Assembly (NCBI GenBank): GCA_961205875.1
Contig: OY540817.1
Coordinates: forward strand, 4,561,001 to 4,625,000
Source: Sialis fuliginosa
Taxonomy: Eukaryota > Arthropoda > Insecta > Megaloptera > Sialidae
Direction of reading: 5' to 3'
DNA length: 64,000 bases
The position numbers and the translations under genes were made by a program. This document shows positions 12,816-63,658 of this stretch, piece after piece; position 1 is the stretch's first letter, and each line of letters begins with the position of its first letter. The notes under the pieces were generated by a model, which saw nothing but the letters and a program-made list of their open reading frames with translations, searched no databases and had not been told where the DNA came from.

Positions 12816-13086
12816 AATAATAATTTCTATGTATGCGCATTTACCCACAGTTTACATCTGCGTTAGAAAGATGTTTTTATCTGTTATGGCGTACAAGCTA
12901 TCGAACTTCCACGCACTATTGCCTCACCCTATATATCATCACGCTATCACTCAAAACAGCTGAGCAGTGAATAAATCAGTCAAATTGACCATTTAACTCG
13001 TAAATGATGTTTAAAAATTTTGTGTAGTTCAATTAGTTCGCCACAAAAGTCCATGAAATGCATTTGAAGCCGCGGGGACCTGCTAG
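12816..13086 (+). mobile_element. Helitron 3' end (tentative)
   Basis: The segment ends AGCCGCGGGGACCTGCTAG followed by T. CTAG at the end, a GC-rich subterminal stretch and insertion before T are Helitron 3' features. The hairpin is imperfect and the 5' end was not found, so the left limit is only the end of the preceding foldback. Confidence 0.4.
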
Positions 13087-33379: not shown

Positions 33380-36358
33380 TTAATACCTCTAACACTGCAG
33401 CCTTTGGCTTATTGTGTTCTTCATCAATTCACTCATTCAGTAAAAAGGTTTACCATTCCTATCAGGTTCAGTAGCCTTTTCACCAGGTTTTCTCTTATTA
33501 AAGCTTCTCGATTATTGGCTCCTGCTTAGAGTGCATTTCTCCATCGAGCAAGAGCTTCACATTCGAATATTATATGGGAGGCTGTTTCGTCCTCTTCATT
33601 ACACAGTCTGCAAATGGGTTCTTCTTCATAGATTCCCATTGTTTGCATGTGTTTCCGTAGGTTACAGTGACCAGTTATCATTCCTGTCACTAGCCTAATT
33701 TGTTGTCTACTTAGTTGTAGTATTTCATCCGTTAGTTTTCTGGATGGTTCATTCAGCATAGTTTTGCTATGTCTTTGTCCTTCCACATTATTCCAGTGGT
33801 TTTGATGTTGTCTTTTTATCCAATCAGCTAGCCAACTGCGAATAGTGTTTTTGGTAATTCCAAATACTGGTTCAGGGCCTATAAAAGTTGTTTTTGAGCC
33901 CTTTTTTGCCAGAGTATCAGCTTTTTCATTGCCTGCTGTCCCTTTATGTCCTGGTACCCACATAACGGTTACCCTATTGCGGTTTGCCAGGGTTATGAGG
34001 TTTTGAAGGCTGTCCCAGACCAATTTTGAGTTGATCTGATAACTAGCCAAGGCTTTCAGTGCTGCTTGGCTATCTGTCAGGACAAGGATATCTTTGCCTT
34101 GATAGTTCCTGTGTATGTTCTCTGTATACCATACAAGTTTGCCTTCCTGACTGCGTCTTTGTACTAGCCCCTCATTCCAGTCTAGCTGGATGTTAAAGGG
34201 TTTGTTGAAGTTATGCCTTATTGGCATAACATCACTTCCCATTTCTAATAATGGGCCTGTGATGTTTCCAGTTATCCTGGCATGTCCAGGGATGGTGCTA
34301 GCTTGCCAATTCCCGTTGAGTTCCAGCCTGTACGCCGCCATCCTCGCCTCTCCTTTGATTATAATATCTAGGGGAGGCAGGTTTAACAGAGTTTCCATGG
34401 CTGCAGTTGGGGTGGTTCTCATCGCTCCCGTAATACATAAGCAGGCAAGTCTCTGAACTTTAGATAGCTCCAGTTTGGCTTGTCTTTGTTCAACTTTAGG
34501 CACCATACCAGCGATCCATAGGTAATCATGGGTCTTACCACGGCTGTGTATAACCAGTATACCATGCTTGGTTTAAGTCCCCAGGATTTACCCAGTGCTC
34601 GCTTTGTTGCCATAAGAGTTGTTTTTCCTTTATTTACGGTTTTTTGTATTTGTGATTTCCAGGTTAGCTTCGAGTCTAGGATTATACCCAGATATTTAGC
34701 CTCCTGGCTCACTTGTAGTTGTTCATTGAAGAAGTTTGGAAGTCTGAGCCCGTCCAGATTTCTTCGTCTTGTAAATGGTACCAGTGCCGTCTTTTGTGGA
34801 TTTACACTTAAGTTCTCCTTGGCACACCATGTTTCCACAACTTCAAGAGCCCTTTGCATGAGCCTTGAGACTGTGTCGTCAAACTTTCCCTGGATGAGTA
34901 TTACTAAATCGTCAGCATACCCCTGGGTGTAGTAGCTTTGTCTATTTAGTTTGACAAGGAGTTCATCTACCACTAGGTTCCACAGTAGAGGTGATAATAC
35001 CCCTCCCTGCGGACATCCTTTGGCAGCTGTTATCTCCATCGTCTCACTAGATAGAGTTGATTGTATTTTCCTGTTGTGTAGCATATTGCTGATCCACCTA
35101 CATATGGTGTCTTCTATACCACGTCTTCTCACTGCGGCTATCATTGACTCGAAGGAGGTGTGGTCAAAAGCTCCTTCGATGTCTATAAATGCCGCTAGTG
35201 CCATTTCCTGGTGGTTAATTGCATTTTCAATTTTTCCCACTAGTTGGTGAAGGGCTGTCTCACATGATTTCCCCACTTGATAAGCATGTTGGTGGGGATG
35301 GAATAAGCTACCTTTAGGTAAGCTTTGCCTTATGTGATTTCCTATCAGTTTTTCCATCACTTTTAGCATAAAAGATGTTAAAGTGATGGGTCTGTAGGCC
35401 TTTGCCTGGGAGTGGTCTCTTCCAGGTTTAGGTATAAAGACAATTCTAGATTGCTTCCATGCAGTGGGAATATGACCCGTTGCTAGGCTTGCTCTTAGAA
35501 GTCTACAAAGTTTTGGAATTATGATGGATTTCCCTTGCTGTAGTAGCACAGGTATAATTCCATCAGGACCAGGCGCTTTGTATGGTTTGAATGAATCTAT
35601 AACCCACTCGGTTGTGTTATGGGTTATTATTTTATTTGCCGTTTGCCAGTCTCTTTTTGTTGCCCTGATAATGGGGTTTACAAGATCAAGCAAGTTTTCC
35701 TCTGCAGGTAAGTCTACATTTGAGTCTGGCAGGTGTACTTGAAGTAGTAACTCCAAGGTTTCCTTGCCCGTTTCTGTGTATTTGCCATCTGGTTTCAATA
35801 TTGTCCCAATTGGTTCCACTGGATCCTTGGCCAGAATTCTCTGGAGTCTTGCTGCCTCAGAGGTGTTTTCAACTTCTTGGCAGAAATTCCTCCAGGAGTC
35901 TCTTTTGGCCTTGCGGATTTGTTTATTATATTCTGTCAGGGAGAGGTAGTATTCTTCCCATCTTCCTGTTCTTTTCGCCTTGTTAAACAACTTGCGTGTT
36001 TTCTTTCTTTGTTCTGCCAGATTTGTGTTCCACCAACAGACTTCTCTATTTGTGGATCTACTCACAACCCGGCAGTTGTTATGGTATGAATTTACAATAG
36101 CCTCCTGTAATTGAACAGAGGTTAATTCTATATCCATACTGTCCTTGATTTCATTTTTTACATTTTCCAAGTTCAATTGTAGGTCCTGTTTGTATTTCTC
36201 CCAGTCCGTGTTTCTCGGGTTTCGATATTCCGAAGCTGGATTATCAATATCTTTGATTTCCATTCGGATATATCTATGATCCGAGAGCGACGGTTCCTCG
36301 GACACATGCCATCGAGTTATTTGAGAGCTTATACGTGAGGTTGCTACTGTTATATCAA
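33380..36358 (-). mobile_element. 5'-truncated R1/I-group LINE (non-LTR retrotransposon)
   Basis: It consists of the 3' ~3 kb of a LINE in minus orientation: the tail end of an endonuclease domain, reverse transcriptase, RNase H, a CCHC-like C-terminus and ~50 bases of 3' UTR. The presence of RNase H after RT argues for the R1/I groups rather than Jockey or CR1 (family knowledge). The 5' end stops abruptly at 36358 inside the endonuclease, as expected from incomplete reverse transcription. There is no clear poly(A) tail or target duplication. Confidence 0.88.
33433..36357 (-). pseudogene. LINE ORF2 pseudogene (EN remnant, RT, RNase H)
   Basis: From 36357 the frame shows the end of an AP-type endonuclease (SLSDHRY). 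RT hallmarks follow: a motif A with FIDIEGAFD, GCPQGGVLSP, the catalytic YADD and a later YLGIILDSKLTW. RNase H is represented by LTDSQAALKAL and VPGHKGTAGNEKAD, and the C-terminus by a C-x2-C-x7-H-x4-C motif (CRLCNEEDETASHIIFEC). Lesions: a one-base frameshift near 34500; apparent loss of the N-terminal RNase H segment (no TDGS-type first Asp motif) around 34130-34200; and an in-frame TAA at 33526, after which 30 more sensible codons run to TGA at 33433. It is not functional. Confidence 0.88.
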
Positions 36359-36863
36359 TATAAGGGGGAGGGGTGACATCCTAAAATATTTATTTTTTCA
36401 AGATATCTCAAGAACGACACATGTTATGTGAATTTTAAAGAATATTTTTTGTGGAGCATTAAATTTCCTATAATATGGGTCTACAACGTTTGTTGTAAAA
36501 TACTCTCTTACAAAGATTTATCTGAATTTATTTTAAAAATTCGTGTTTTGTTTTTCTAAATTGATAATTGCTTGGACATATTAAATGTCAATTTGGCGTT
36601 TTAAATGTCATTTTGACGTTTTAAATGTCATTTTGACGTTTGCATAAATTTAGATTTAGATTGAAATTGTCAAAAAATTAAAAATATACGAAAAAATATT
36701 CAGGTGCGTTTTAAGAAAAATTCCGAACTAATATTTTTTAGAAAAATTGTATAAAAATTAAATGGTAAACCAATTCCAGGAAATTTATATAAACATTATC
36801 GGTTTTTATTTGGTGAATTTAGTACTAGGAAGCTCTGTGCATTTACTTGGCAGATGTTTTTTT

Positions 36864-39330: not shown

Positions 39331-39682
39331 ATGTTAAAAGCAACCAATAGAACTACTAAATATAATATTTTTTTATATCTTTAATATAAAAGTAATAAAT
39401 AATTTTTATCAATTTGTAAAAATCAATTTAAAAAATCCTCACAGCCCAAATTCATTTCCTAATAATTCTAGTAACCAAGCCATATTTTCTTATTTTACCA
39501 ATCAATATACTTCAGATTATTTATTTTATTTGTTTATGCTTGCTAAAAAGAAACATAAATGAATGATTTTTTTGTCAAATAATGGCGATGCTGTCATAAC
39601 TCTTACAGGAGTATCTCTACTCTAATCATTGTTCTATGCTCTAATCCAGTTTATATCACCAAATAAATTTTATACGCTGTAA

Positions 39683-39727
39683 CATTGAGTAAAAAATAAT
39701 TATAAATAAATTATTCTTTACTCAATG
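39683..39727. mobile_element. 45-bp palindromic insertion with 7-bp duplication
   Basis: CATTGAGTAAA at the left is the inverse of TTTACTCAATG at the right, and the whole 45 bases form one near-perfect hairpin. GCTGTAA flanks both sides (39676-39682 and 39728-39734). Copy B has a single GCTGTAA and no insertion. It behaves like a minimal MITE. Confidence 0.8.
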
Positions 39728-40234
39728 GCTGTAAAAAACTTTTCTATTTATTTTAAATCATTAAATAAAAATTGCGCCATCTATGGTTGAAACAAGTAAT
39801 TTCTTCGAACGAACAGATGCGCCACCTAGGAACGAATAGCATAACTATAGAATAATACCATGATGCATAGTGTTGTAAACCAACTAGAGAGGGCGAACTT
39901 TGAATCATCGGGAAATATTAAAACAAATATCGATTTCTAACAGCCAAATTAGCAAAACGACAAAAAGTTAATTTTACAAGGAAACTAAGCAGAAAATAAT
40001 TTGGATCATCCTTGTTGAGAGATCCTTAAAAAAAATAAAAAGTTTTGTCCAAAATTTTCTTTAAATAATAATCTCTGTCTTAAGTTGGATGGAGAGGGAG
40101 GGGGCGGGGGTATTTTAGGTTTATAATCTAAAATAAAGCCTGCCCACATCTTTGTGAACAAAACGATAATTCGGCGGTTGGGAAATTCGATAAGAGTAAA
40201 TCAATTCCAAGCTATAAATATTAATAATATAGGT

Positions 40235-40456
40235 CAGCGATTCTTAAACTAGGGTCCACGGACCCCCAGGGGTCCGCTGAACTTTTGGCAAAGGTCCGTG
40301 AAACATATTTGGCATAAATTAAAGTAATTTTACATTTCTATTTACCAATGATTAATTAGTATTTAACGACCTTCTTTGTTTTTCTGTCAGGAGGGGTCCC
40401 TGAAAAATAATTGTTCAAAAGAGGGTCCCTAAACCTCATAAGTTTAAAAACCGCTG
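40235..40456. mobile_element. hAT-type MITE, 222 bp, perfect 8-bp duplication (copy A)
   Basis: The ends CAGCGATTCTTAAACT and AAGTTTAAAAACCGCTG are inverted with few mismatches. ATATAGGT is duplicated (40227-40234 and 40457-40464). A local GGTCCACGGACCCCCAGG palindrome lies inside. It is also present in copy B (50791-51009). Confidence 0.9.
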
Positions 40457-40467
40457 ATATAGGTAAC

Positions 40468-40782
40468 CAGTGGCGTTGATAGGGGGGGGGGGGGGGGGGG
40501 TAAGGTGATCAATCACCCCCCATGAGTCTATTTCATTAGAAAATTCAAATACATTTTTTTTAACTTTCCTAGTATGAACAAAATAGTAGAATTAAATAGG
40601 AAAAATTGGGTAAATTAAGAGTAAAAAAAAAGGTCTTCAGTTATTTTTCAATTTATAATAATAATTTTTTTTAATTTTGCATATTTTATAGGCCCCTCAG
40701 CCACCACTTGCCCCGGGGCCTCCGAGCTTCTAATTGCAGTCCTGGTCATATCCCCCATCGCATAAAGTTAACTACGCCACTA
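40468..40782. mobile_element. hAT-type MITE (CAGTGGCGT), inserted in the previous MITE's duplication
   Basis: The ends CAGTGGCGTTGATAG and TAACTACGCCACTA are inverted. TAGGTAAC is duplicated exactly (40460-40467 and 40783-40790), and this target overlaps the right-hand duplication of the MITE at 40235-40456. The interior carries GGCCCCTCAGCC and GCCCCGGGGCCTCCGAG. Copy B has it at 51021-51329. Confidence 0.9.
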
Positions 40783-40789
40783 TAGGTAA

Positions 40790-40975
40790 CTAGCTAGTTA
40801 CCCGTGACTTCTTACATATATTTAATAAATTTTCGGGATAAAAATTAGCCTATATGTTCTTCCTAAGGATACAAGGTATCTCCCTGCAAAATTTCTTCAA
40901 GATCAGTTCAGCGGTTTATCCGTAAAAAAGTAATAAACAGGCAGCCAGAGTTACTTTCGCATTTATTAGTATGGA
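40790..40975 (-). mobile_element. Mini-Helitron, 186 bp (copy A)
   Basis: Read on the minus strand it starts TCCATACTAATAAATGCG and ends GGGTAACTAGCTAG followed by T. It keeps the AGATCAGTTCAGCGG-type motif, but half of the 3' hairpin is lost. It abuts the MITE at 40468-40782. The same element in copy B is 51337-51522. It lies just downstream of the CRIP last exon. Confidence 0.75.
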
Positions 40976-41163
40976 TATAAAAAATCAAACAGGTAATAAA
41001 TGTAGACGATAATAATATATATGTATATTTTAATAATTATGTTTATTTTTACAAAATATAAAGTTTTAGGTACTGATAATACTTATAATTGTTAACAATA
41101 TATCATGTCAAAGAAATATATTGGAATGTCACAAATAGTTGAAATAACCAGTTATTTTTTAAC

Positions 41164-41207
41164 TCATTTCTTGTAGACATAACTTTCTGCTCCTCCACGT
41201 CCAAAAC
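41164..41207 (-). pseudogene. Duplicated last exon of the CRIP gene (copy A)
   Basis: On the minus strand TTAATTGCAG is followed by 44 bases encoding the CRIP C-terminus [13 protein letters not shown] and a stop, identical to the exon at 51711-51754. Acceptor, frame, stop and downstream AATAAA (41042-41047) are all intact. No copy of exons 1 or 2 is present nearby. It is either an orphan exon or an alternative terminal exon ~10.5 kb further from exon 2. Confidence 0.85.
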
Positions 41208-41282
41208 CTGCAATTAAAATAAAAACACTTGTTTAACAACTTCAATAGGTAACTAACCATTATATTAATTAATGTATAAATT

Positions 41283-41400
41283 AGGGGTGTACTGGAATTC
41301 CAGTCCGGCCAGAATTCCAGCCGGAATTCACGATTTTATTCCAGTTACGGTTCCGGCCGAAACTAGTAAATTCCGGCCGGCTTTTCCTGAATTTAAAAAA
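41283..41400. mobile_element. MITE end fragment with CCGGAATTC motifs (copy A)
   Basis: GGGGTGTACTGGAATTCC is followed by repeated CCAGCCGGAATT and TTCCGGCCGG motifs, in the style of the subterminal repeats of the hAT MITE at 26497. No matching right end was found. The copy-B counterpart is at about 51835-51952. Confidence 0.45.
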
Positions 41401-41634
41401 AATTATTAGTTCTTTCTACTAAGAAATTCATAAATAATATACATTATTTTTGTAAAAAAATCACACATAAATATAATAATTATGATATAGCAATATTTTA
41501 TTAGCAAAAATTTTAATGGAAACAATCATTCCATAACACAAATGCAGTTTTTTAACATTTTGTGCAGCAAAAGTATGATTGTAATTGTAACATCAATTGA
41601 CCATAAAAAATAAGTACATTTTTTTATAATAATA

Positions 41635-42598
41635 CTAGCTGCTACCCGCGACTTCGCTCGCGTGGATTTCGAAACCCTTCATATGTGACAGGGGGTAAAA
41701 TATTAAATTTATCTTATTTTTAGTTTTCTTTAATTATACAAAATCGTAAATGTGTCGGCTCCTATGCGAGATAGAGGGGTTTTTCCGCCCTAAAACCCCC
41801 ACCCCCGTGGTATTTTTCCCGCTGGATCGAATAAAACCACTTACAACCCTTCATATGTAACGGGTAAAATATTAATTACTAAAAAAAATTTAAAATTTTC
41901 CTCCCCCTTGCAATTCCTTAGGGGTTGAATTTTCGAGATATGAAATAGCCTTAATCCGTCCTTGGGATGTAAGCGATCTCACTGCCAAATTTCATCAAAA
42001 TCGGTAAAGCAGTTTAGTCGTGAACAGGTAACAAATAGACAGACTGAGAGATACACTTTCGCATTTATAATATAAGTCGCGACTCCTATGTAAGATAAGG
42101 GGTTGTTTTGTCCCCCTAATAATCCCTCTTCCGTAGTATTTTTGCCCGCCAGATCGAATGTAATCAATTACAACTCTTCATATGTGACAGGGGGTAAAAT
42201 ATTAAATTTTTCTTATTTTTAGTTTTCTTTCATTATACAAAATCGTAAATATCTCGGCTCCTATGCGAGATAGAGAGTTGTTTTGCCCCCTAAAACCTAC
42301 GCCACCGTGGTATTTTTCCCGCCGGATCGAATAAAACCACTTACAACCCTTCATATGTATCGGGGGGTAAAATAATAATTACTAAAAAAAATTAAAAAAT
42401 TTCTACCCCCTTGCAATTTCTTAGGGGTTGAATTTTTAAGATACGAAATAGCCTATGTCCGTCCTCGGGATGCAAGCTATCTCACTGCCAAATTTCATCA
42501 AAATCGGTAAAGCGGTTTAGCCGTGAAAAGGTAACAAACAGAAAACAGACAGACAAACACACTTTCGCATTTATAATATTAGTATGGATATCGTAAAA
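41635..42598 (-). mobile_element. Non-autonomous Helitron, 964 bp, with internal tandem modules
   Basis: On the minus strand it starts TCCATACTAATATTATAAATG at 42598. It ends with the hairpin CCACGCGAGCGAAGTCGCGGG and GCAGCTAG at 41635. Two long modules, each with a CTTCATATGTGACAGGGGGT and a TATGCGAGATAGAG block, are repeated in tandem, with shorter partial ones between. A truncated relative is at 58573-59665. Confidence 0.85.
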
Positions 42599-43732
42599 TG
42601 TCCAAATATTACTTTACTTAATATTTTATTAACTAATTAAAATTTGAACAATAAAACTTAAATTTTTCGAAAAATTGTTCATTCGAAGAATTTTGATTTG
42701 AAAAATTGTGATTCGAAAAATTGTGTTTCGAAAAATTTACACCAAACCTAATAATTAATTTCGATATTTTACCTTTCATAGAAGTGAAATGTTTCTTCAT
42801 ATTTAAATTTTCAATCAATATAGGCATTTCAAAATATTTAATTGTTAATATGTGTCAAAAATCATTTAATTGTTCGACAAAATATTTTAAAGAGACATAA
42901 TCATAGTAACCTAAATTAATAAAATAAAATATTGAAACCGTAAATTATAAAATTCCGTATTCCATGGCTAGGTACTATGTTTTTATATACCTAAATTATA
43001 ACATACCTGGTTAAATTATTTCTATATCGTCCCCTCCAAGGCAAAGTATCGTAAGATACACTTTTTGCGAAATTGAGTTATCGATTCTAAAAATCTCATA
43101 TATAAGCGACAAAATTCTCTTTTCCGCTAAAAAATCTGTTAAAACTTTTATCGTATTCCTCCAGACAATGTATTCTAAGCACCGATATCTGTTTTATGAA
43201 ATATCGTAACCAACAATAATATAGTATCGTAACCAGTGACGTAGCTAGCCCTGAGTGGATCCTGACTGGCCTATATGGTAGGTACTTTCCCGCGACGGAA
43301 TAATATAGTGCTGTGACGGAGTGCTTTCTTATTTATTCATTAGAGCTGGGTTTTTATCAATTTTAATTTTATTAATTTTAAGATATTTTAGAAAAATCGT
43401 ACCTGTTAAAACTTTATTGCACAAACTAAATATGGTTTTTCTATGAGGTTTTTTCAATATATTTTTTACCCTCAATAACTCAATTTGGTTGATATTGAAG
43501 TATGATGTAGAACAGTGCTTCCTAAACTTTTCCTACGACAGAACACTTCACAAATCCTGAAATTTTAATGGAACGTCTTGGTTATTTTGTAAGTAATATA
43601 TAAAATAAGGAAAAAAGTAAATTTAAATCAGTCAAGCATGTTTGAACTTCTCGCAGCATTTAAAAACATTGAATATTAACTTTGATATTTTTTACGCTTA
43701 AACTGATAAGACATACGTTATATATCGTAGTA
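42599..43732. other. Sequence between the two Helitron 5' ends, no gene seen
   Basis: 42599-42735 matches 55940-56062 (ATCGTAAAATGTCCAAATATTA and ATTCGAAAAATTGTG motifs). CAGTGACGTAGCTAGCC (43231) and CAGTGCTTCCTAAAC (43514) look like single MITE ends. No exon-like segment was recognised. Confidence 0.4.
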
Positions 43733-44021
43733 CAGGTATTCCTCGACTTACAACCGAGATAGGTTTCTAAACATCGATCGTAAATAGAATAAGTTGTAAG
43801 TTAACACGTACAATATGTACATATTTTTGCTTTGGACGTTTTCCTTGATGTGAAGCGAATCGCATTTTCTATACATAACAAACAGTTGCGGGTTCCCAAA
43901 AATATCTACATAAATAATAATAAATTACATTTTTGGGAAATTCCCGGAACTGTTTGTTTCATTTATGTAATATGTGCATGTAAGAAAGAGACAAAGACAA
44001 TTATAAGTCGAGGATTACCTG
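43733..44021. mobile_element. TA-flanked MITE with CAGGTATTCCTCGACTTA ends, 289 bp
   Basis: The left end CAGGTATTCCTCGACTTACAA and the right end TTATAAGTCGAGGATTACCTG are inverted, with TA on both sides (43731-43732 and 44022-44023). Similar CCTCGACTTA elements are common in insects and are attributed to mariner-type mobilisation. It lies within the composite Helitron. Confidence 0.85.
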
Positions 44022-45375
44022 TATATTTGTTTACGATGCGTTTTCAACTCTTGTCGTATGAAAATATATTGCATACTAAATACATATTATGACATTTGTT
44101 TCTGATATGACAACGACAAAAAATTATTTTATGACTTCTGGTACATGTATTGTATTACATCATGTACTTACATGATTTGAACATTTTATGAATATTAAAA
44201 ATAATTTCATTTTTGGTTTTTCTGCTCGTGTCTTTCAAAAATTCATCAATGTGTCTATATAAATACATTATTAGCTCTTGTAGATACTCGTACACCATTT
44301 GTACAATTAATTAATTAATTACAATCAAATATAGGTCTTGTCAATTGAATGAAGCTTTCGTAACAATTTGCAATAAATCAACATCTTGTTTTAATTTTGT
44401 AAATGTACATTTTAGGTTAGTACATTGGGTAAAGATGACAGATATACAGTTTCAAACAATTAAAATAATATCATTTAAAATTACAATGTTAATTTGAAAT
44501 TATATAAATTCTTCTGATATTTATGATTACAAATAAATATAATAAAATACCTATACCTATGAAAGTAAAAATATTGATAATTCAATGACTTAAGATTAAA
44601 AAAATGTCATTATATACTTAATTTTTATTTGTACCGGGAACACATATCTATCGCCGAATGTTGGTCGAATTGTGTCCGAATGCTGTAATTGTTTGTCTTC
44701 AATTTTTTTGTCAAATTTATTTATGAAAATTTTAATTATATATTACATTAGAGTTGTGCATATTTTTTCATTCGTTATGTTCTTTATATTTCTTTTTTGT
44801 TATATTTTATTGTTCACTTCAAAATTTTAAATGGCCACTGACATTTAAATTTTTTAAAAATAATCAATAAAATATAATGTATCCATAGTTACGACATTTG
44901 CAATTAATTTAGTAAATGCTTAAAGCGCATTATATGTAAACGTATTTTGTTTATTTTCTCCTCTTTAACATATCTTTTTCAAAAATCAGACACGGGTTTA
45001 TGGTTGTCAATTAACCAAAGTATTTGAAAAAAATTAAAAAAATCTAATATCGGTTTTCGTTTTGATACTTTTTTACATCAAAACTTTTTTTTTCCTTTTT
45101 TTTTCTTTTTTTTTAAATCTGAAATTTGAACCTTACATTATATCGCCCAAGGAATATAAAAAAAATAATAAAAAAATTCTAACTTTTTTTTTGAAAAATT
45201 GGGGGCCCCTTGTTACCCCATTTATAAACTTTTTCAAAAAAGGCCCACTAGTTGTTATTTTTTACCCCCAAGGAATGTATATACCAAATTTCAAGTTTCT
45301 CCGATGAGTGGAAATGGTCAAAAAAATGATTATCAGTCAGTCAGTCAGTCAGGGCACTTCGTTATATATAGTAGA
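44022..45375. other. 5' portion of the composite Helitron, no gene seen
   Basis: Mostly AT-rich filler. The last ~180 bases (GGGGGCCCCTTGTTACC, CACTAGTTGTT, AAATTTCAAGTTTCTCC, (GTCA)n, CACTTCGTTATATATAG) form the 5'-terminal region of a Helitron on the minus strand. Confidence 0.5.
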
Positions 45376-45396
45376 TATGTATTAACAAAAATTATA

Positions 45397-46050
45397 CAGG
45401 GTCATATCAGGTGGTATAAAACTTGAACAGTTGGTCGAAAAAAAACGATTATAATAGATACAACACATTTTATTCATTATTGAATAAAAATCACAATTGC
45501 CATGGAAAACTAAAATATTCTTGTTAGTCGAGGCGTCAGCAAAAACTATAACAATCACTCGAGTGCAATATTGAATTAAAATCAAGTAAGCTTTGGAAAA
45601 AAGAATGGTTGATGTTTAAAATTTATTTAATATATTTATTAGTATTCGTTGCTTATTTTGTTAATATATAACAATGCTGGCCGCTGGCTTTAGGGATGGA
45701 GACTGGGCGACTGCTCGTGGTGCCAGTTCAGAAGGGGCGGCGGACGGCCACATAGAGAAAAACTGATTTTTTTAAGAAAAAAATAGATATAATTCAATGG
45801 GCCCACTGGCTGGACTGGCCCCATACATCTCTGGTCTAAATAATCATTGGTTGGTACTGGAAATCGATAACACGTATAATACTAAACCGGGTATAAAATT
45901 TAAGGACTGTATCACAATGGGTTCTCAAAATATTAAAAAAAAAACTAATTTGAGACAAAATCTTTGAGAGTTTGTAGCTCCCTCACGAAGAGTTTGAAAT
46001 TTTTTTCTTAATAAACTGTTCAAGTTTTTTCCACCTGATATGACTTTTCC
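45397..46050. mobile_element. TA-flanked foldback with ACAGGGTCATATCAGG ends (copy A)
   Basis: The left end CAGGGTCATATCAGGTGG and the right end CCACCTGATATGACTTTTCC are inverted, with TA on both sides. It contains a relatively GC-rich core with GGGCGACTGCTCGTGG. It is related to the larger element at 31752-32931 and matches 52195-52852. Confidence 0.8.
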
Positions 46051-46803
46051 TATAAATATATCAAAGATTTTTGAAAATTTCCAATTGTAATCATGTAAAA
46101 ATAAGATTGTAGCCCTAAATACGTTTTCTTCAAAAACATGTCATGCCTCCGAGAATAATCTCTCCGAATAGACTGATGCATACTATCTGAACTTACTTAG
46201 CTAGTAGTATTAAGATAATGCAGTATTGTTTATGATACATGCACTATAATAGTAATGTATTGGTGCTTTCATTTCGAGTAGTTGGCATTCTTTTATCTGT
46301 AAAAATTTATAACACTTCTCTATTCAATTATAATTTGACACTAGAAATGTAATTAGATTCGATCTTTTGATAGGTTTTTTTAAATTTCTTCATTAATGTT
46401 AAAAAACAAATTAAATAAAGTTTTTGAAACTTCTGCGATTTTATCCCCCATTTTGTATTTGCCATTCTGAATCTTGTTAATGTCAAAATCATCATTAGCG
46501 ATCTCAAAAACACGCAGACAATGAAATTATGATAGAGAAATGTCATGAAAACTGTGAGAGAATGAAACCATTGTGTTAAATGGTGTTGAACTTTCGAATG
46601 TATTTTCTAACCTTAAAACGCCTTGTTAGCAAAAATAAAAAAAAACACGTGTTTAATGTTTTTTGATGTACTACGTGTGTGCAAAGTTTCAAGAATATCG
46701 GCGAGTGGCACTTGGGTAGGTTTACTTGTGAGTAACCATTCGCGTGAGAATTCACCATTCACCGATAACTTATAAATAAAGTTAATATCATCTTGGTCTC
46801 GAG
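46051..46803. other. Part of the duplication, no gene seen
   Basis: It is collinear with 52853-53583. An 82-codon minus-strand frame (46613-46861) is preserved in both copies, but it runs into the MITE at 46804. Its sequence (a TTTGCACACACGTAGTAC-type stretch) looks like transposon interior, so it is not called. Confidence 0.4.
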
Positions 46804-47110
46804 CAGTGGCGTAGCAAGCATAATTGGCGCCCGGGGCACGATATCTTTTTGGCGCCCCCAAAAATAATTTTAAAAAAATAATAATAATTTTATAATAAAT
46901 TTTGAAATTGAAATTGGCGTGACTAAAAAAAAAGAAAAAAGTTTTCAGTTTTTAATTAAATTAAATACATTCTGCTGTCTTCAGTTGCATATTCTGAAAT
47001 TGTGTTTATGCTATGCGGTTCAAATGGTTCAGAGCCATTTGGCGCCCTTCTGTAAGTAGCGCCCGGGGCATGATAACCCCCCTTGCCCCCCCCCCCTCGC
47101 TACGCCACTG
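46804..47110. mobile_element. hAT-type MITE (CAGTGGCGTAGCAAG), perfect 8-bp duplication (copy A)
   Basis: The ends CAGTGGCGTAGC are inverted. GTCTCGAG is duplicated exactly (46796-46803 and 47111-47118). GGCGCCCGGGGCACGATA and GCGCCCGGGGCATGATA motifs sit inside the two ends. Copy B has it at 53584-53902 with a longer C tract. Confidence 0.92.
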
Positions 47111-47137
47111 GTCTCGAGGTACAGTCCTTATCTTTAC

Positions 47138-48638
47138 AAAGGCTGTAGCCGGGTAAGCATGCAAAACATGCCTTTACATGGATTTGGCTGATTATTTTTT
47201 TGGAAGTCACATTCTATTAAACATTCAACCTGACCAAATATTAGCTCCCAAAAATTTATAGTTTTCGAAAAAAAAATTTTTTTTGATAATCTGTCAGTCG
47301 AATTTGATGGTGCTTGAAATATATTATAGAGGTACTTATGACTCATCAGAGGTAATTTTATTATGATCCTCTGTACATAATAAACCAGAAAAAAAATTAA
47401 TAAAATTTAAAAAATCAAAAAAGACCATGTTGTCTTCGGAGGGCAATCACAATTTTTTTATATAATATACCTTGTATGTACCCAAACAATATATCAAAAT
47501 CCCAAATTGATACAAAGGGTATAACATACTCGTATAAATTCGCATGCGGTCGTATCGGAGTGGCGCGAGCGTGGCGCGGGCGAATGCAAGTGTATTAATA
47601 CTTTTAAAATATCTCTAATTTGTTGCTAAACAGGACTGGGCTAGCCCAGAGGCATATCGAAAATTTGACGGGGCTCATAGTCTGACAAAAACAAAATATA
47701 GAGGCCGTAGCCGGAAATATATGGGAACTGCTCCATTGAATCAATTTAACAAATTTTTTTCTCATAAGTTGCTTTTTAAGTAAAATTCAATCGCCCTAAA
47801 TGTCTGTGCTTCAATATTCATTTTTGCTCAGATAATTTTTATTAAAAAAAAAAATCTTGTCTATAGTTTTTAATGGAAGAAGATTCGCTAGTTCACAGCG
47901 GAAATGTGATTTGTTACTACTAAAGTCGATTATAAACATTTCTAAGCGATTTGGGGCGATTTTTTGTTACTTAAAAAGCAACCTATGAGAAAAAAAATTG
48001 TAAAATTAATTAAATGGAGCAGTTCTCATATATTTCCGGCTACGGCCTCTATATTTTGTTTTTGTCAGGCTATGAGCCCCGTCAAATTTTCGATATGTCT
48101 CTGGGCTAGCCCAGTCCTGTTTAGCAACAAATTAGAGATATTTTAAAAGTATTAAGACACTTGCACTCGCCCCCGCCGCGCTCGCGCCACTCCGATACGA
48201 CCGCATGCGAATTTATACGAGTATGTTATACCCTTTGTATCAATTTGGGATTTTGATATGTTGTTTGGGTACATACAAGGTATAATATATAAAAAAATTG
48301 TGATTGCCCTCCGAAGACAACATGGTCTTTTTTGATTTTTTAAATGTTATTAATTTTTTTTTCTGGTTTATAATATACAGAAGATCATAATAAAATTACC
48401 TCTGATGAGTCATAAGTACCTCTATAATATATTTCAAGCACCATCAAATTTGACTGACAGATTATCAAAAAAAAAATTTTTTTTGAAAATCAAAAAAAAT
48501 TTTTTTTTCGAAAACTATAAATTTTTGGAAGCTAATATTTGGTCAGGTTGAATGTTTAATAGAATGTGACTTCCAAAAAAATAATCAGTCAAATCCATGT
48601 AAAGGCATGTTTTGCATGCTTACCCGGCTACAGCCTTT
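47138..48638. mobile_element. Large palindrome P, 1501 bp
   Basis: The left arm from AAAGGCTGTAGCCGGGTAAG to about 47780 is the inverse of about 47970-48638, nearly base for base. The arms include a GC-rich CGTATCGGAGTGGCGCGAGC segment and an internal TGGGCTAGCCCA. The spacer is ~190 bases. No transposase or target duplication was found. It fills the left half of the gap between duplication copies A and B. Confidence 0.85.
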
Positions 48639-49562
48639 AAGGGCAGTTTTAAAAACTTGAATAAATTTCCTACAAGACCCTTCCATGACTTTATTAGAAA
48701 AAAAATTTTTTTTACCCTCACCATTAGTGTGAAAAAGTACAAAAAATGACCTTTTATGTTCTTTTAGTAAATCTATCGCTACTTTACAAATATTGATGGG
48801 AAGATTAATGTTGCCAGGTGATTTTACAGCTTAATGTACCTCCAACAGCCCTGTAAATTTTTAAATTGATCCATCGAACCGTTTTTCCGGACCGATTGAT
48901 CAAAGTTTTACAAAACAATTAAAGGAACATGTGTATTGTGTAACAGACTGGAACATAACATTGTGTAATCATCATCAAAATGTAGAAAACGATTTTCGAT
49001 TTTTGATTTTATTTACAGTTTTGCATTAGTTACTTGTTAAATTTGAAATGGAGAAAAAAAAATCCAAAAAATTTAAAAAAAAATTTTTTTTTAAATTTTG
49101 AATTTTTTTTTCAAAATTTTTAAAACATTTCAAGAAACAATACTGACTCATTTTTGACTCGATTCGGCTTTTGCGTACAATAATTTTACTCATCTTGAAT
49201 TAATTGCATTAATTAATTCTTTCGCAGCGGGAACCGTACGAAATTGTAAAATAATTTTGTCTCGCATGCTGGAATCGAATTAATACGCAAGCAAAATTTG
49301 ATCAGTCGGTTCGGAAAAACGGTTCGATGGATCAATTTAAAAATTTACAGGGCTATTGGAGGTACATTAAGCTGTAAAATCACCTGGCAACATTAATCTT
49401 CCCATCAATATTTGTAAAGTAGCGATAGATTTACTAAAAGAACATAAAAGGTCATTTTTTTGTACTTTTTCACACTAATGGTGAGGGTAAAAAAATTTTT
49501 TTTCTAATAAAGTCATGAAAGGGTCTTGTAGGAAATTTATTCAAGTTTTTAAAACTGTCCTT
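48639..49562. mobile_element. Large palindrome Q, 924 bp, abutting P
   Basis: The ends AAGGGCAGTTTTAAAAACTTG and CAAGTTTTTAAAACTGTCCTT are inverted. The arms of ~260 bases include ACCCTCACCATTAGTGTG and GATTTTACAGCTTAATGTACC. It begins directly where P ends. TTAA spans the P/Q junction (48637-48640), but the right side reads TTCAA, so a TTAA duplication is not proved. Confidence 0.8.
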
Positions 49563-49990
49563 CAATTTATTGTTTAATCATTAGTTGCTGATATATTGAT
49601 GATCGAAGACAAAAGAATCATTTTTCATTTAAAGGCAGATATCTCGGCGAAAAAAAATTGAGAGAGACCAAAAAAAAAGCAAATTAAAGCTGACTAAACA
49701 AGTTAACTGACCAATGCAGTGGTTTAACTGAAAAAAATTTCCCAAGCCCGAGGACCCTTAAAAAAAATTTAAAAAATTTAAAAATTTTTGTGTCCCACTA
49801 TTTCTTTTGATTGCGCGATAACCGTAACTCAAAAAAAATTATGCTAAAAAATCTCAAAACTAGAAACTTGACGCTTCAAAATGCTTTTTGTTTTATTTCG
49901 ATACGACCATTTTTCACAAAGATACAGCACTTCAAAAAACACCCAAAAAAAATGTTTAAATTCTTGTTCCTTTAATTGTTTGGATGAGTG
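49563..49990. other. Spacer before duplication copy B, no gene seen
   Basis: AT-rich with long A runs. No recognisable element. Confidence 0.35.
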
Positions 49991-52900
49991 TATAAAAGTA
50001 ATAAATAATTTTTATCAATTTGTAAAAAACAATTTAAAAAATTCTCACAGACCAAATTCATTTCTTATTAATTCTAGTAACCAAGCCATATTTTCTTATT
50101 TTACCAATCAATATACTTCATATTATTTATTTTATTTGTTTATGCTTGCTAAAAAGAAAACATAAATGAATGATTTTTTTGTCAAATAATGGCGATGCTG
50201 TCATAACTCTTACAGGAGTATCTCTACTCTAATCATTGTTCTATGCTCTAATCCAGTTTATATCACCAAATAAATTTTATACGCTGTAAAAAACTTTTCT
50301 ATTTATTTTAAATCATTAAATAAAAATTGCGCCATCTATGGTTGAAACAAGTAATTTCTTCGAACGAACAGATGCGCCACCTAGGAACGAATAGCATAAC
50401 TATAGAATAATACCATGATGCATAGTGTTGTAAACCAACTAGAGAGGGCGAACTTTGAATCATCGGGAAATATTAAAACAAATATCGATTTCTAACAGCC
50501 AAATTAGCAAAACGACAAAAAGTTAATTTTACAAGGAAACTAGGCAGAAAATAATTTGGAGCATCCTTGTTGAGAGATCCTTAAAAAAAAAAAAAAAGTT
50601 TTGTCCAAAATTTTCTTTAAATAATAATCTCTGTCTTATGTTGGATGGAGAGGGAGGGGGCGGGGGTATTTTAGGTTTATAATCTAAAACCAAGCCTGCC
50701 CACATCTTTGTGAACAAAACGATAATTCGGCGGTTGGGAAATTCGATAAGAGTAAATCAATTCCAAGCTATAAATATTAATAATATAGGTCAGCGATTCT
50801 TAAACTAGGGTCCACGGACCCCCAGGGGTCCGCTGAACTTTTGGCAGGGGTCCGTGAAACATATTTGGCATAAATTAAAGTAATTTTACATTTCTATTTA
50901 CCAATGATTAATTAGTATTTAACGACCTTCTTTGTTTTTCTGTCAGATGTCCCTAAAAAATAATTGTTCAAAAGAGGGTCCCTAAACCTCATAAGTTTAA
51001 AAACCGCTGATATAGGTAACCAGTGGCGTTGATAGGGGGGGGGGGGGTAAGGTGATCAATCACCCCCCATGAGTCTATTTCATTAGAAAATTCAAATACA
51101 TTTTTTTTAACTTTCCTAGTATGAACAAAATAGTAGAATTAAATAGGAAAAATTGGGTAAATTAAGAGTAAAAAAAAAGGTCTTCAGTTATTTTTCAATT
51201 TATAATAATAATTTTTTTTAATTTTGCATATTTTATAGGCCCCTCAGCCACCACTTGCCCCGGGGCCTCCGAGCTTCTAGTTGCGGTCCTGGTCATATCC
51301 CCCATCGCATAAAGTTAACTACGCCACTATAGGTAACTAGCTAGTTACCCGTGACTTCTTACATATATTTAATAAATTTTCGGGATAAAAATTAGCCTAT
51401 ATGTTCTTCCTAAGGATACAAGGTATCTCCCTGCAAAATTTCTTCAAGATCAGTTCAGCGGTTTATCCGTAAAAAAGTAATAAACAGGCAGCCAGAGTTA
51501 CTTTCGCATTTATTAGTATGGATATAAAAAATCAAACAGGTAATAAATGTAGACGATAATAATATATATGTATATTTTAATAATTATGTTTATTTTTACA
51601 AAATATAAAGTTTTAGGTACTGATAATACTTATAATTGTTAACAATATATCATGTCAAAGAAATATATTGGAATGTCACAAATAGTTGAAATAACCAGTT
51701 ATTTTTTAACTCATTTCTTGTAGACATAACTTTCTGCTCCTCCACGTCCAAAACCTGCAATTAAAATAAAAACACTTGTTTAACTACTTCAATAGGTAAC
51801 TAACCATTATATTAATTAATGTATAAATTAGGGGTGTACTGGAATTCCAGTCCGGCCAGAATTCCAGCCGGAATTCACGATTTTATTCCAGTTCCAGTTC
51901 CGGCCGAAACTAGTAAATTCCGGCCGGCTTTTACTGAATTTAAAAAAAATTATTAGTTCTTTCTACTAAGAAATTCATAAATAATATACATTATTTTTGT
52001 AAAAAAATCACACATAAATATAATAATTATGATATAGCAATATTTTATTAGCAAACATTTTAATGGAAACAATCATTCCATAACACAAATGCAGTTTTTT
52101 AACATTTTGTGCAGCAAAAGTATGATTGTAATTCATCATTTGACCATAAAAAATAAGTAAATTTTTTTATGATAATATATTAACAAAAATTATACAGGGT
52201 CATATCAGGTGGTATAAAACTTGAACAGTTGATCGAAAAAAAACGATTATAATAGATACTACACATTTTATTCATTATTGAATAAAAATCACAATTGCCA
52301 TGGAAAACAAAAATATTCTTGTTAGTCGAGGCGTCAGCAAAAACTATAACAATCACTCGAGTGCAATATTGAATTAAAATCAAGTAAGCTTTGGAAAAAA
52401 GAATGGTTGATGTTTAAAATTTATTTAATATATTTATTAGTATTCGTTGCTTATTTTGTTAATATATAACAATGCTGGCCGCTGGCTTTAGGGATGGAGA
52501 CTGGGCGACTGCTCGTGGTGCCAGTTCAGAAGGGGCGGCGGACGGCCACATAGAGAAAAACTGATTTTTTTAAGAAAAAAAAAATAGATATAATTCAATG
52601 GGCCCACTGGCCAGACTGGCCCCATACATCTCTGGTCTAAATAATCATTGGTTGGTACTGGAAATCGATAACACGTATAATACTAAACCGGGTATAAAAT
52701 TTAAGGACTGTATCACAATGGGTTCTCAAAATATTTAAAAAAAACTAATTTGAGACAAAATCTTTGAGAGTTTGTAGCTCCCTCACGAAGAGTTTGAAAT
52801 TTTTTTCTTAATAAACTGTTCAAGTTTGTTCCACCTGATATGACTTTCCCTGTATAACAAAGATTATTGAAAATTTCCAATTGTAATGGTGTAAAAATAA

Positions 52901-53932
52901 GACTGTAGCCCTAAATACGTTTTCTTCTCCGAGAATAACCTCTCCGAATAGACTAATGCATACTATCTGAACTTACTTAGCTAGTAGTATTAAGATAATA
53001 CAGTATTGTTTATGATACATGCACTATAATAGTAATGTATTGGTGCTTTCATTTCGAGTAGTTTGCATTCTTTTATCTGTAAAAATTTATAACATCTTTT
53101 CTATTCAATTATAATTTGACACTAGAAATGTAATTAGATTCGATCTTTTGATAGATTTTTTAAATTTCTTCATTAATGTTAAAAAACAAATTAAATAAAG
53201 TTTTTGAAACTTCTGCGATTTTATTCTCCATTTTGTATTTGCCATTCTGAATCTTGTTAATGTCAAAATCATCATTAGCGATCTCAAAAACACGCAGACA
53301 ATGAAATTATGATAGAGAAATGTCATGAAAACTGTGAGAGAATGAAACCATTGTGTTAAATGGTGTTGAACTTTCGAATGTATTTTCTAACCTTAAAACG
53401 CCTTGTTAGCAAAAATAAAAAAAAACACGTGTTTAATGTTTTTCGATGTACTACGTGTGTGCAAAGTTTCAAGAATATCGGCGAGTGGCACTTGGGTAGG
53501 TTTACTTGTGAGTAACCATTCGCGTGAGAATTCACCATTCACCGATAACTTATAAATAAAGTTAATATCATCTTGGTCTCGAGCAGTGGCGTAGCAAGCA
53601 TAATTGGCGCCCGGGGCACGATATCTTTTTGGCGCCCCCAAAAATAATTTTAAAAAAATAATAATAATTTTATAATAAATTTTGAAATTGAAATTGGCGT
53701 GACTAAAAAAAAAGAAAAAAGTTTTCAGTTTTTAATTAAATTAAATACATTCTGCTGTCTTCAGTTGCATATTCTGAAATTGTGTTTATGCTATGCGGTT
53801 CAAATGGTTCAGAGCCATTTGGCGCCCTTCTGTAAGTAGCGCCCGGGGCATGATAACCCCCCCCCCCTTGCCCCCCCCCCCCCCCCCCTCGCTACGCCTC
53901 TGGTCTCGAGGTACAGTCCTTATCTTTACAAA
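49991..53932. repeat. Segmental duplication, copy B
   Basis: This is the collinear partner of 39385-47140. It is taken as the ancestral location because it contains the CRIP exon 3 that lies nearest to exon 2. It lacks the 3.7-kb Helitron and the 45-bp palindrome of copy A. It includes MITEs at 50791-51009 (ATATAGGT duplication), 51021-51329 (TAGGTAAC), a mini-Helitron 51337-51522, a MITE end at 51835-51952, a TA foldback 52195-52852 and a MITE 53584-53902 (GTCTCGAG). Confidence 0.93.
51589..51594 (-). promoter_or_regulatory. Poly(A) signal of the CRIP gene
   Basis: AATAAA on the minus strand, about 120 bases after the CRIP stop codon, is the first such hexamer in the 3' flank. The same site is conserved in copy A at 41042-41047. 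Confidence 0.6.
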
Positions 53933-56900
53933 TTTGTATGAATCAAATATTATATTTCTGAAAAGCCGTATAGTAATAATTATACAAATTTCAATTAATT
54001 ATGATTTTAAAATGCCCCTCTCACCTCCTGGTCCGAACATAGCCGAGTAACATGGGTTGTGGCAGTAGGGTTTACCCTCATGTTCCGCGTGCGAACCCGG
54101 GACTAGAGTTTTGTTGCATTTCTCACACCGCAAACAGTTGCTATGCCAATCCTTGCCTAGCGATGTCTTCCTTTCAGCTGCAAACAAATAACATCTTTAT
54201 TTACAAGAACGTTAAAAAATCAATTCTAATAGTTAAACTGCAAAATAAGATACTGGCACCAGTCTGGGATCATACCCCAGTATTGGACTCTTGTTTAATC
54301 AAATGTAATATAATCTATACTAAAGACACTTAACAGTAAAACAGCTTAATTTGATGGTAATCGGATAATGGGTGTCAAAATGGTAGACATTTAAACTAAT
54401 TATTAGTGTAATTTATTTATTAATTATTATTTATCATAGCATCTGTTTTTAATTGTTTACAATTTTACGATTCTTTATTTAATAACTTTTATGTCGTAGT
54501 ACCTACTATTTACTAATCAATTATTTTATAATCATTAGCAAGTGTCCATCACTGGGTACCCATTACTGTTTTTACTTTCTCCATTACAGGAGAAAGAACG
54601 TAAACAAAATAAAAGGCTATAATTAAAAAAAAAAACGGCGGCTCAAGTCAAGTGGAGGTCCCAGGCGGTAAAAATTTCGAGGCCCTCAAACTCAAGTTAG
54701 AAATAGAAGTTGCAAGAAAACTCTCATAAACTTATTAACAAAAAAGAAAAATAATGAAAAATTTCATACCACACAATTTACACATTAAATAAGCTTATTT
54801 AAAAAATATTTTTACATTAATTTCCGTCTTGCTTTATTTCTTGTACAATCTTCAATTACTATAAATACGTTTACACCAGGGCCGTAACTAATAAATCATA
54901 AAGAATATCTTCTCAAAATTTTATTAAAATCGCTTTACTATTGGTCGTTGTAAAAAAGTACTTTAAGTTCGTAATAAAATTATGAGATTTTTTAAAATTT
55001 AGTTTTATGGGGAAATTCATAACAAAGTTTAAAATGATTTTTTTATTTATGCAATCCGGCCAATAGAATTGCAGATATTTAAAAAAAACGTACACGAAAA
55101 ACTGTAAAAATGGTCGTTTTTTCAACAAGGTACAAAAAATTGTGCTAATATGACTCCATAAGGTATATTGTCCCATTTATCAACTAGGGTGACCAGGTCT
55201 CAAGTTTTGACCCGGAGTCTCAGGGTTTACATACTAGTTCTCCGGGCTCAGTGTTTCGGTGCAATTTCTCCGGGTTTTGCAAAAAATGACGACTAAAAAA
55301 AAAAGAAAAAAAGGTCGTCAAAAGTGCAGATTAAGGTAATAAATTTTATGAAAAAAAGAATAAAATGAAAATAAAAAAAATAAAATAAAATAAAAAAGGG
55401 ATCTCATTTACAGTATCCGGCGAATTTTTCGAAACACAATTTTTCGAAACACAATTTTTCGAATCACAATTTTTCGAAACACAATTTTTCGAATCACAAT
55501 TTTTCGAATGAACAATTTTTCGAAAAAATTAAGTTTTGGGTTTTTTAAATTAAGTTTTATACAAAATTTGATAAAGGTAGTAATGAGAAAGAATAAAGAA
55601 AAAGCAAAACAATTTTACACCCTGATGTTCAAACTTTTATTTAGTAAATAAAACATAAAGTAAAGTAATATTTGGACATTTTACGAAATATATTTAAGTT
55701 GTAGGTATTTACATGTTTTTTGAAAGGTGGTTTATTAATAAATTCAATTTAAGCGATTTTCTTTTATGTTTTTTAAATCCTAATAAATGTTCTTTTTTAC
55801 GCGTATGTTATTATTAACATTAAACAAAATTAGTTTATTGATGAGAGGATTAGCCAACCCTCTCACAAACTGCAAATGTATTAACATATATACATGTATG
55901 TACCTAAATAAATTACATGACTTTTTATTTATTAAATATATCGTAAAATGTCCAAATATTACTTTACTTAATATTTTATTTACTAAATAAAATTTGAACA
56001 ATAAAACTTAAATTTTTCAAAAAATTGTTCATTCGAAGAATTGTGATTCGAAAAATTATTTTATTAATTATTTACATGTCAGGGTTTACAAAAATTAAAA
56101 TCTGGTCACCCTACCCTCAACCCATAAATACAATAGTATAGAAATTGGATACAAGGTTTGCAAACACTTTAAATGGGATATTAATTCTGTAAAAAAATGT
56201 ATCAATTAACAAAATTTATTTCAAACAGGAAATTCAATTAAAAAGAACTTGTATCATTTAAATTAAGATAACCGTTTTTTTTTATTAAATAATTGGATTT
56301 GATAAATGTCTTTCTAACGACATATATTTCTCGAAAGTCACATAGATATATAATGTTTTATCTCTATTATATTATACACTGGTGAAAAAAATAGTCAGTT
56401 GAAATATAATTGTAAGTTTTTACTGTTATATGATAAGTGACTATAGTTGTAGATTACATGACACGAATATATAAACAATAGAGAAACTTAATATGCATAA
56501 ACGATCTTTTTACTTTAATTTTATAAATGTATGTACAGGGCCGTACGCGTTGCAGAGTTTTTTTCTGCCCTTTAATACTTAAATGTATTATTGAAAATGT
56601 TATAGAATATAAATATGAAAATATGATAAATTGTTAATTAGTCAGAATAGATCTTTAACTCATAATGACTTTTGATGATTTAAAAATCATTTTGATTTTT
56701 TTTTTTTGTTAAGTACAGTATAAATATGCATTGTTCTAGGTTAGTTTTAATTTTAATTCTGTTTTTTCTTGTATTTAAGTTGAATTTCAATGAAAATTTG
56801 AAATCTAAACCATGTAATTTTTTTTTTTTTTGCTTTTTTAAACTGTATCTATCTATTTTCTTTGTTGTATAAATATTTCAATTGCAATTACCTTTTTTGC

Positions 56901-58572: not shown

Positions 58573-59665
58573 CTAGCTGCTACCCGCGGCTTCGCTCGCG
58601 TGGTTTTATTCATTATACAAAATCGTAAATAACACAGGCCGACATCATTTTTGGTGTCTCTACTTAAATAGGTGATTTCGAAGGCTTTTGACATGCTGAA
58701 CCCGAATCCGTCACCCGAATTGCTCCATCAGGTCAGGTTTTTGATATAACCTAACCTAAAAGTGTTCAAAATGACAATTTTGGTAATGTTTAAGAATTTA
58801 TTACCAAGTAGGTAATTTTTTTCTAAAGTTTTCGTTCATGGTAAGAAGTAGTACTATCTTTCCTCTTTAAAATAAATTTTTACTTTCTACTGTACGATTT
58901 TTTTTTCACCGAAATAAACTAGTTTGAAGTTATTGTTATATTTATTGTATAGCAAAGTCCATTGTGTCACTGTGTCTACTCTATTAAGAAAAATATAATA
59001 TATTCAAACTAGTATATTTCGGTGACAAAAAATCGAGCAATTCGGGTGACGGATTCGAGTTCAGCACGTCAAAAGCCTCCGAAATCACTTATTGAAGTAG
59101 AGACACCAGTTCAAAAGTATTTTTTTGTAGGCCTGTGTAATCGACTGCTATGTGAGATAGGAGGTTGTTTTTCCTTCTAATACTCCACCCTCGTGGTATT
59201 TTTCCCGCTGGATCGAATAAAACCAATTACAACCCTTCATATGTAATGAAGGGTAAAATATTAATTACAAAAAAAATTATCCATACAAATTTTTCTACCC
59301 AGTTGCAATTCCTTAGGGGTTGAAATAAAAAGGAGCCTAAGGACATACCTCGGGATGCAAGTTATCTCACTGCCAAATTTCATCAAAATCATTAAAGCGT
59401 TTTGACCGTGAACAGGTGACAAATAGACAGACTAAGAGACACGCATTCGCATTTATAATATAAATTTCAACTCCTATGCGAGATAAGGAGTTGTTTTTTC
59501 CCCCTTATAACCCCTCTTCCGTAGTATTTTGCCCGCCAGATTGGATGAAATCAATTACAACCCTTCATATGTGACAGAGGATGAAATATTAAATTTTTCT
59601 TATTTTTGGTTTTCATTCATTATACAAAATCGTAAATTTCTCGGTTCCTATGCGAGATAGAGGGT
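58573..59665 (-). mobile_element. Helitron (minus), truncated at 5', with nested foldback
   Basis: On the plus strand CTAGCTGCTACCCGCGG follows an A. The hairpin ACCCGCGGCTTCGCTCGCGTGG comes next, then the same tandem modules as 41635-42598 (CCCTTCATATGTGACAG, TATGCGAGATAG). It stops inside a module at ~59665 without the TCCATACTAATATT end. Confidence 0.75.
58632..59138. mobile_element. Foldback element with ACACAGGCC ends, nested in a Helitron
   Basis: The arms (ACACAGGCCGACATC..., GTGTCTCTACTT, CCGTCACCCGAATTGC) are inverted across the ~500-bp element. It interrupts the Helitron module between CGTAAAT and CGACTGCTATG. The uninterrupted module at about 42242-42270 reads CGTAAATATCTCGGCTCCTATG. 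Confidence 0.75.
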
Positions 59666-60248
59666 TTACATTTTCCGAAAATAGGTCTAATTATTTTTTT
59701 AAGAATGTTCGAGAATATATAAGTCATATATTGTCAATACTCATATTTTTAATTCTTAATTCTAATCAAAGTGACATTAATTGAGACGCCACTGATTGAA
59801 ACTGAAAATTCGTTTTTTCATAAAAGATATGTCTCTACACCTTGTTTACACCCACCAAGTTTTATAAAAATATTCGATGTAGTTTCGGAGTTATTAAAAA
59901 AAAAACAATTTTTCAAAAAAATCTTGATCATTCTGTACATATATCAAAAATAAAACAAAAATGTTCATATGAACTTTTGTCTTAAAATCTTGTACAGATT
60001 AACCCCCTTCAATATTGATATTCAATTATGAAACATCCTGTATAATTCACATCTGGCCTCTGAAAGGATTAATAGCTTAATTAATATCTTTGTGATATTA
60101 TATGTAATACTTATACATATTTTAATCTATTACAAATTGTTACAAATAAGATAAAGTAATTAATGATTATTGATATGATAATTGGTAATATCGAAAACTT
60201 GTTAAGGATGTCCAAGAGACGTCAAAATTTTGTTTTAAGCCAATCTCG
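59666..60248. other. Decayed repeat, no gene seen
   Basis: The segment ending GAAACATCCTGTATAAT (about 60030-60047) looks like one end of a TACAGGATGTTTC-type element without its partner. A 60-codon frame before it has no domain. Confidence 0.35.
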
Positions 60249-63585: not shown

Positions 63586-63658
63586 GGGGGCGTAGCTCAG
63601 ATGGTAGAGCGCTCGCTTAGCATGCGAGAGGTACCGGGATCGATACCCGGCGCCTCCA
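63586..63658 (+). tRNA. tRNA-Ala (anticodon AGC)
   Basis: A full cloverleaf of 73 bases without an intron. The acceptor stem GGGGGCG/CGCCTCC has the G3:U70 pair that identifies alanine tRNAs. The D arm contains TAGCTCAGATGGTAGAGC. The anticodon stem CTCGC/GCGAG holds loop TTAGCAT with AGC at 63619-63621. The T arm is CCGGG/CCCGG with loop ATCGATA, and the discriminator base is A. A at position 54 instead of T is unusual in general, but I recall it from silkworm Ala tRNA. T-rich runs from about 63665 can serve as the polymerase III terminator. Confidence 0.97.

Follow-up and report, generated by a model that had tools for sequence, protein, structure and literature searches.

Anatomy of a composite Helitron: a 3.7-kb insertion that appears to run from one element's 5′ end to another element's 3′ terminator

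How did one copy of a duplication come to hold a 3.7-kb block that starts with what looks like one type of Helitron 5′ end and finishes with the 3′ end of a different Helitron? The block lies in the 64-kb window, which is the whole stretch of DNA analysed here, and both copies of the duplicated unit fall within it. Self-comparison of the window aligns copies A and B at 95.8% identity on the low-coordinate side of the block (39385-41634 in A, 49991-52177 in B) and at 96.5% on the high-coordinate side (45380-47140 in A, with the alignment running from 45377, and 52178-53932 in B, with the alignment running from 52175). These alignments bear out the sequence-only reading, which held that the duplicate copies match on both sides of the block. 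A total of 51 substitutions in 3924 aligned bases (1.3%) and 15 indel runs separate the two copies, with A the longer copy in nine of the 15 runs when the junction is counted. Copy B is empty for the entire block, and its empty site (52160-52200) has the junction between 52177 and 52178.

The composite insertion occupies 41635-45375 on the minus strand, runs from TC to CTAG and is found in copy A only. Read on the minus strand, copy A passes from GTTAATACATA into TCTACTATATATAACG at the start of the block and from GTAGCAGCTAG into TATTATTAT at its end, and copy B reads GTTAATA followed directly by TATTATCAT. The Helitron rule proposed earlier for the block, a minus-strand TC start and CTAG end with A before and T after, holds in these junction sequences. 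The whole composite is thus a TC...CTAG unit between A and T with an empty site, and four extra bases come besides. These are TATG on the plus strand (45376-45379), also missing from copy B. The extra sequence in A had been put at 3741 bases; it is indeed present in A and absent from B, and amounts to 3745 bases, block and TATG together. We place the element at 41635-45375, with TATG left over, because of the Helitron rules. At the outer edge TATG is a poor fit to a clean insertion between A and T of a B-like site. Runs of 4 bp make up three of the 15 A/B indel runs, TATG among them; since two of the other 14 runs also measure 4 bp, TATG may be an ordinary indel, and it may equally be a by-product of the insertion.

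Other differences and shared features mark the duplicated unit. The largest indel run is a stretch of 52 bp at 39676-39727, present in A and absent from B, within which 45 bp have 11-bp inverted ends (CATTGAGTAAA/TTTACTCAATG) accompanied by a repeated GCTGTAA. This difference looks like the insertion of a very small transposon in A, with a 7-bp target duplication, rather than a loss from B. Both units also hold a short, older Helitron of 186 bp (40790-40975 and 51337-51522), which reads TCCATACTAATAAATGCG...CTAGCTAG between A and T; because both copies hold it, Helitrons struck this unit before and after the duplication. An open frame of 112 aa on the minus strand encodes an identical protein in A (46613-46951) and B (53393-53731). 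For the A frame, Pfam gives no match at E 1 and PDB only weak ones (E 0.66), the latter for a 71-residue part; the frame may represent an exon or a transposon fragment. Between A and B, two adjoining long inverted repeats fill 47138-49565. One pairs 47138-47801 with 47949-48638 at 92.5%, the other pairs 48636-48908 with 49293-49565 at 96.7%, and copy B begins soon after, at 49991. Elsewhere in the window, a non-LTR retrotransposon with reverse transcriptase and RNase H domains in overlapping frames lies on the minus strand at 33526-36380, and a tRNA gene at 63586-63658 is the sole Rfam match at the gathering score.

The 3′ end of the composite is supplied by an inner Helitron on the minus strand, TCCATACTAATATTATAAATGCGAAAGTG...CTAG, at 41635-42588. 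Its TC falls at 42588-42587 and its CTAG at 41638-41635, so that both a 5′ TC and a 3′ CTRR are in place. The earlier description of a complete element that gives the block its 3′ end therefore stands as to the 3′ end; the length is 954 bp (41635-42588) rather than the 964 bp first given, and positions 42589-42598 are sequence of a repeat, R, outside the element. The inner Helitron contains two 5′-type halves about 500 bp apart, 88.8% alike, and a single 3′ end. The second 5′-type sequence (42054-42082) differs at 4 of 29 bases and does not have the TCC start. Relatives are present in the window: 5′ ends like TCCATACTAATATTATAAATGCGAAAGTG occur at 22256 and 57680 (3 mismatches in 29 each), and 3′ ends occur at 58573 and 31302 (1 and 2 mismatches in 22, respectively) and also at 24084. 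The body of the element has a copy at 59141-59666, which is 83.8% identical and collinear over 538 aligned positions. This copy also bears family body upstream of the second 5′-type sequence, which suggests that the tandem form of the inner Helitron predates the composite event. A relative of the inner Helitron at 58573-59667 carries, close to its 3′ end, an interruption of about 500 bp that has inverted ends. An exact-pattern search with the inner 3′ end gave 0 hits in viral_contigs, and a BLAST search with the inner Helitron gave no match against phages; these are virus collections, in which absence means little.

The flanks of the inner Helitron carry the main evidence. On its 5′ side it follows the A of an A-T dinucleotide within R; its original 3′ side has been lost, so one side is visible. 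R was identified by low-threshold comparison within the window, where one arm lies in the composite (42589-42737, minus strand) and is cut at the inner Helitron insertion point, ACGATA followed by T. The other copy found in the window, at 55423-56057, has two inverted arms around about 250 bp. The match of the arm is 95.5% over 112 bp and breaks off at a T that also belongs to the inner TC; the final 20 bases, AATATTTGGACATTTTACGA, do not differ among the three R arms. After AATATTTGGACATTTTACGA the composite reads TA and then TCCATAC, and R reads TATATTTAATAAA in the minus arm or AATATATTTAAG in the plus arm. Both arms of 55423-56057 continue past the insertion point with nine more common bases, TATATTTAA, at a 2-base shift. 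Since the composite switches to TCCATAC where the R arms continue, the inner Helitron sits between the A and the T of R, with its 5′ end at 42588. An arm of R that ended naturally at ACGA and stood beside the Helitron by chance is disfavoured, as both other arms share TATATTTAA beyond that point. R therefore seems to cross the insertion point, over a shared stretch that is short and AT-rich; with a single other copy to compare, the structure of R at the boundary is only provisionally defined.

On the other side of the inner Helitron, CTAG leads into flank of the copy-B type, with no sign of the remainder of R or of an outer 3′ end. The centre of R has no other match in the window, save one chance-like match of 24 bases. 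The interrupted sequence is thus found on the 5′ side only of the terminating element, an arrangement expected of end bypass. Given the B-type flank after CTAG and the missing R centre, R continues in the block no farther than the inner element, whose 3′ terminus closes the block.

This terminus (41635-41662, minus strand) consists of a CGCGA-GCGAAG-TCGCG hairpin, 8 bases and CTAG, and the 3′ terminal sequence recurs elsewhere in the window. The hairpin (CGCGA/TCGCG) is no more stable than shuffled sequence, as 54 of 200 shuffles fold as well. A CTRR-T site counted as having a hairpin if a stem of 4 bp or more, including 3 or more G/C, ended 4-12 bases upstream. By this measure, only the last of the 10 CTRR-T sites on the block's minus strand, at 41635, has a hairpin; across the window the proportion is 22 of 407 CTRR-T sites. 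The test recognised three of five other 3′ ends (58573, 31302 and 24084) and missed those at 13086 and 40790. Within this limited sensitivity, nothing between the outer 5′ end and the inner 3′ end stands out as a terminator belonging to the outer element; as the test catches only three of five, a weak outer terminator could be overlooked.

The outer 5′ end (45333-45375, minus strand) opens with TC, continues through ATATAACGAAGTGCC and passes into a CTGA run. Insect Helitrons of another type start ATATAACGAAGTG with such a run. The first 23 bases of the outer end have no second copy in the window at up to 7 mismatches, bar one chance-like match with 7 mismatches at 43709-43731. The composite likewise has no further copy within the 64-kb window, a span that says little. 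The exact pattern of the outer end gave 0 hits in viral_contigs and genome_contigs, and 44900-45379 gave no BLAST match against phages; absence from these virus and prokaryote collections means little. From the single copy at hand, we infer a functional Helitron 5′ end here. Its best local score against the inner 5′ end is 20, which 37 of 1000 mononucleotide shuffles reached and which is not significant. Homology of the two 5′ ends is not claimed, since that many shuffles equal the score, and a shared transposase is therefore unsupported.

Between the outer end and R lies AT-rich cargo DNA that includes a MITE at 43731-44023. Its 23-nt inverted ends, TA included, fall at 43731-43753 and 44001-44023 and are 91% complementary. 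The MITE previously placed at 43733-44021 is thus present, with its inverted ends identified, and presumably is mariner-like. The composite does not encode a RepHel protein, which non-autonomous Helitrons lack; the longest open frame overlapping the block is 95 aa. A search for gene fragments in the cargo found no Pfam family at E 0.1 in 10 of the 22 frames of at least 45 aa, and the block is not known to have taken up any host gene.

Taken at this one locus, the anatomy supports one composite move that set out from the outer 5′ end and finished at the inner 3′ end, and we regard such a move as the probable origin of the block. The donor locus would have carried an outer Helitron 5′ end and, after some 2.6 kb that included the MITE, a copy of R already interrupted by a 954-bp Helitron belonging to a second type. 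Rolling-circle transposition would begin at the outer TC, pass the element's own terminator or find it lacking, run through the MITE and the first R arm, and halt where the second Helitron has its hairpin and CTAG. The resulting 3.7-kb strand would then enter copy A between an A and a T, a step that is simplest to place later than the A/B duplication. Parts of this scheme that we infer are the enzyme, the donor locus and the succession of events. Read-through from a distant 5′ end to the 3′ end of the next Helitron had been put forward from the sequence alone, and it gains support from the cut of R at the A-T point and from the B-type flank after CTAG.

The alternative offered with that proposal places the inner Helitron inside an older one. 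Interrupted sequence should then occur on both sides, and it is found on the 5′ side only. Simple nested insertion is accordingly rejected, as the rest of R and the outer 3′ end are both absent after the inner CTAG; it would fit only with an added deletion ending exactly at that CTAG. Such a history can be spelled out. The inner Helitron would have entered R within an older outer Helitron at copy A, and recombination between similar 3′ ends would later have removed the rest of R together with the outer 3′ end. If both elements shared one 3′ end, the final anatomy would be the same, and 3′ ends of the inner type do recur in the window. We nevertheless consider this unlikely: a single site would have had to undergo several events since a duplication whose copies differ by only 1.3% substitutions, and the crossover would have to restore an exact CTAG-T junction. 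The inner body is also partly collinear with 59141-59666 and no chimera is visible there, although a chimera between 3′ ends of the same family would still be possible.

Other histories shift the timing or the number of events. The composite could be an older family, formed once elsewhere by the same mechanism, whose copy here moved ready-made. The window leaves the capture undated, as the empty site dates this insertion only; against such a family there is the lack of another copy in 64 kb, which says little, and we hold it distinctly improbable. A pair of insertions, with the inner Helitron arriving alone at the copy-A site and an outer Helitron then following with a new 3′ end in R at the A-T of the inner TC, is more improbable again. 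Myotis is reported to have Helitrons inserted right beside others, and in cell culture new 3′ ends are reported that lack an identifiable palindrome (PMC4778049). Under this history, however, the outer piece would finish in ACGATA without CTRR, and it would be coincidence that R homology reaches the exact A-T point with a shared T. A block older than the duplication and lost from copy B seems barely credible. In its favour, A is the longer copy at nine of 15 indel runs, the junction included, but the loss would need one breakpoint exactly on CTAG-T, without microhomology, and the largest run (52 bp) looks like a small insertion in A instead. Single composite transposition remains the reading that we prefer.

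This reading has published counterparts. The 3′ end of Helraiser can be bypassed, and about 11.7% of events with an intact element take flanking DNA (PMC4778049). As in the end bypass described there for Helraiser and Helibat, transposition here would start at a 5′ TC, miss or lack its terminator and take flanking DNA to another 3′ end; a CTAG end and a hairpin as stop signal are also common to both (PMC4778049). In contrast, the stop here is the 3′ end of a second, resident Helitron, whereas in that system it is a new end without a palindrome, and the present case is natural, non-autonomous and seen from one locus (PMC4778049). For composite Fusarium Helitrons, a move that starts at the leftmost 5′ terminus and stops at the first 3′ terminus has been proposed, which likewise yields several 5′ ends and one 3′ end (PMC5148889). 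The duplicated 5′ pieces of those FoHelis are typically short (<200 bp) and ascribed to self-insertion, whereas the outer end here is of another type, with 2.8 kb of other DNA between (PMC5148889). A study of DINE-1 lists, as a way to capture DNA, a missed termination or a composite transposition that involves neighbouring Helitrons (PMC4067079), and a study of an insect Helitron family weighs end bypass and filler DNA and prefers filler DNA for its own cases (PMC6544945). The inner Helitron resembles Lep1 and Hel-2, short non-autonomous insect Helitrons with a TC start and A/T flanks, and Hel-2 also has a 3′ stem-loop and CTAG; the Lep1 paper mentions chimaeric elements in pea aphid (PMC4038834, PMC4344730). 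This likeness is one of description, not sequence, and membership is not claimed.

Since end bypass and composite Helitrons have both been published, the locus adds a clear further example of a known mechanism. It offers a compact natural case of end bypass halting at a second Helitron's terminator, in which the empty site and the interrupted repeat reveal the starting and the stopping end; mixed content alone cannot do so. It also gives a clear prediction for a donor locus. A wider suggestion, which we put forward as speculative and doubtful, is that Helitrons with two distinct types of 5′ end share one terminator in this genome, such that an outer-type 5′ end upstream of an inner-type Helitron would form a movable composite as a matter of routine. 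If this were true, joining foreign 5′ ends to resident 3′ ends would be how the Helitrons of this host ordinarily gain kilobases of cargo.
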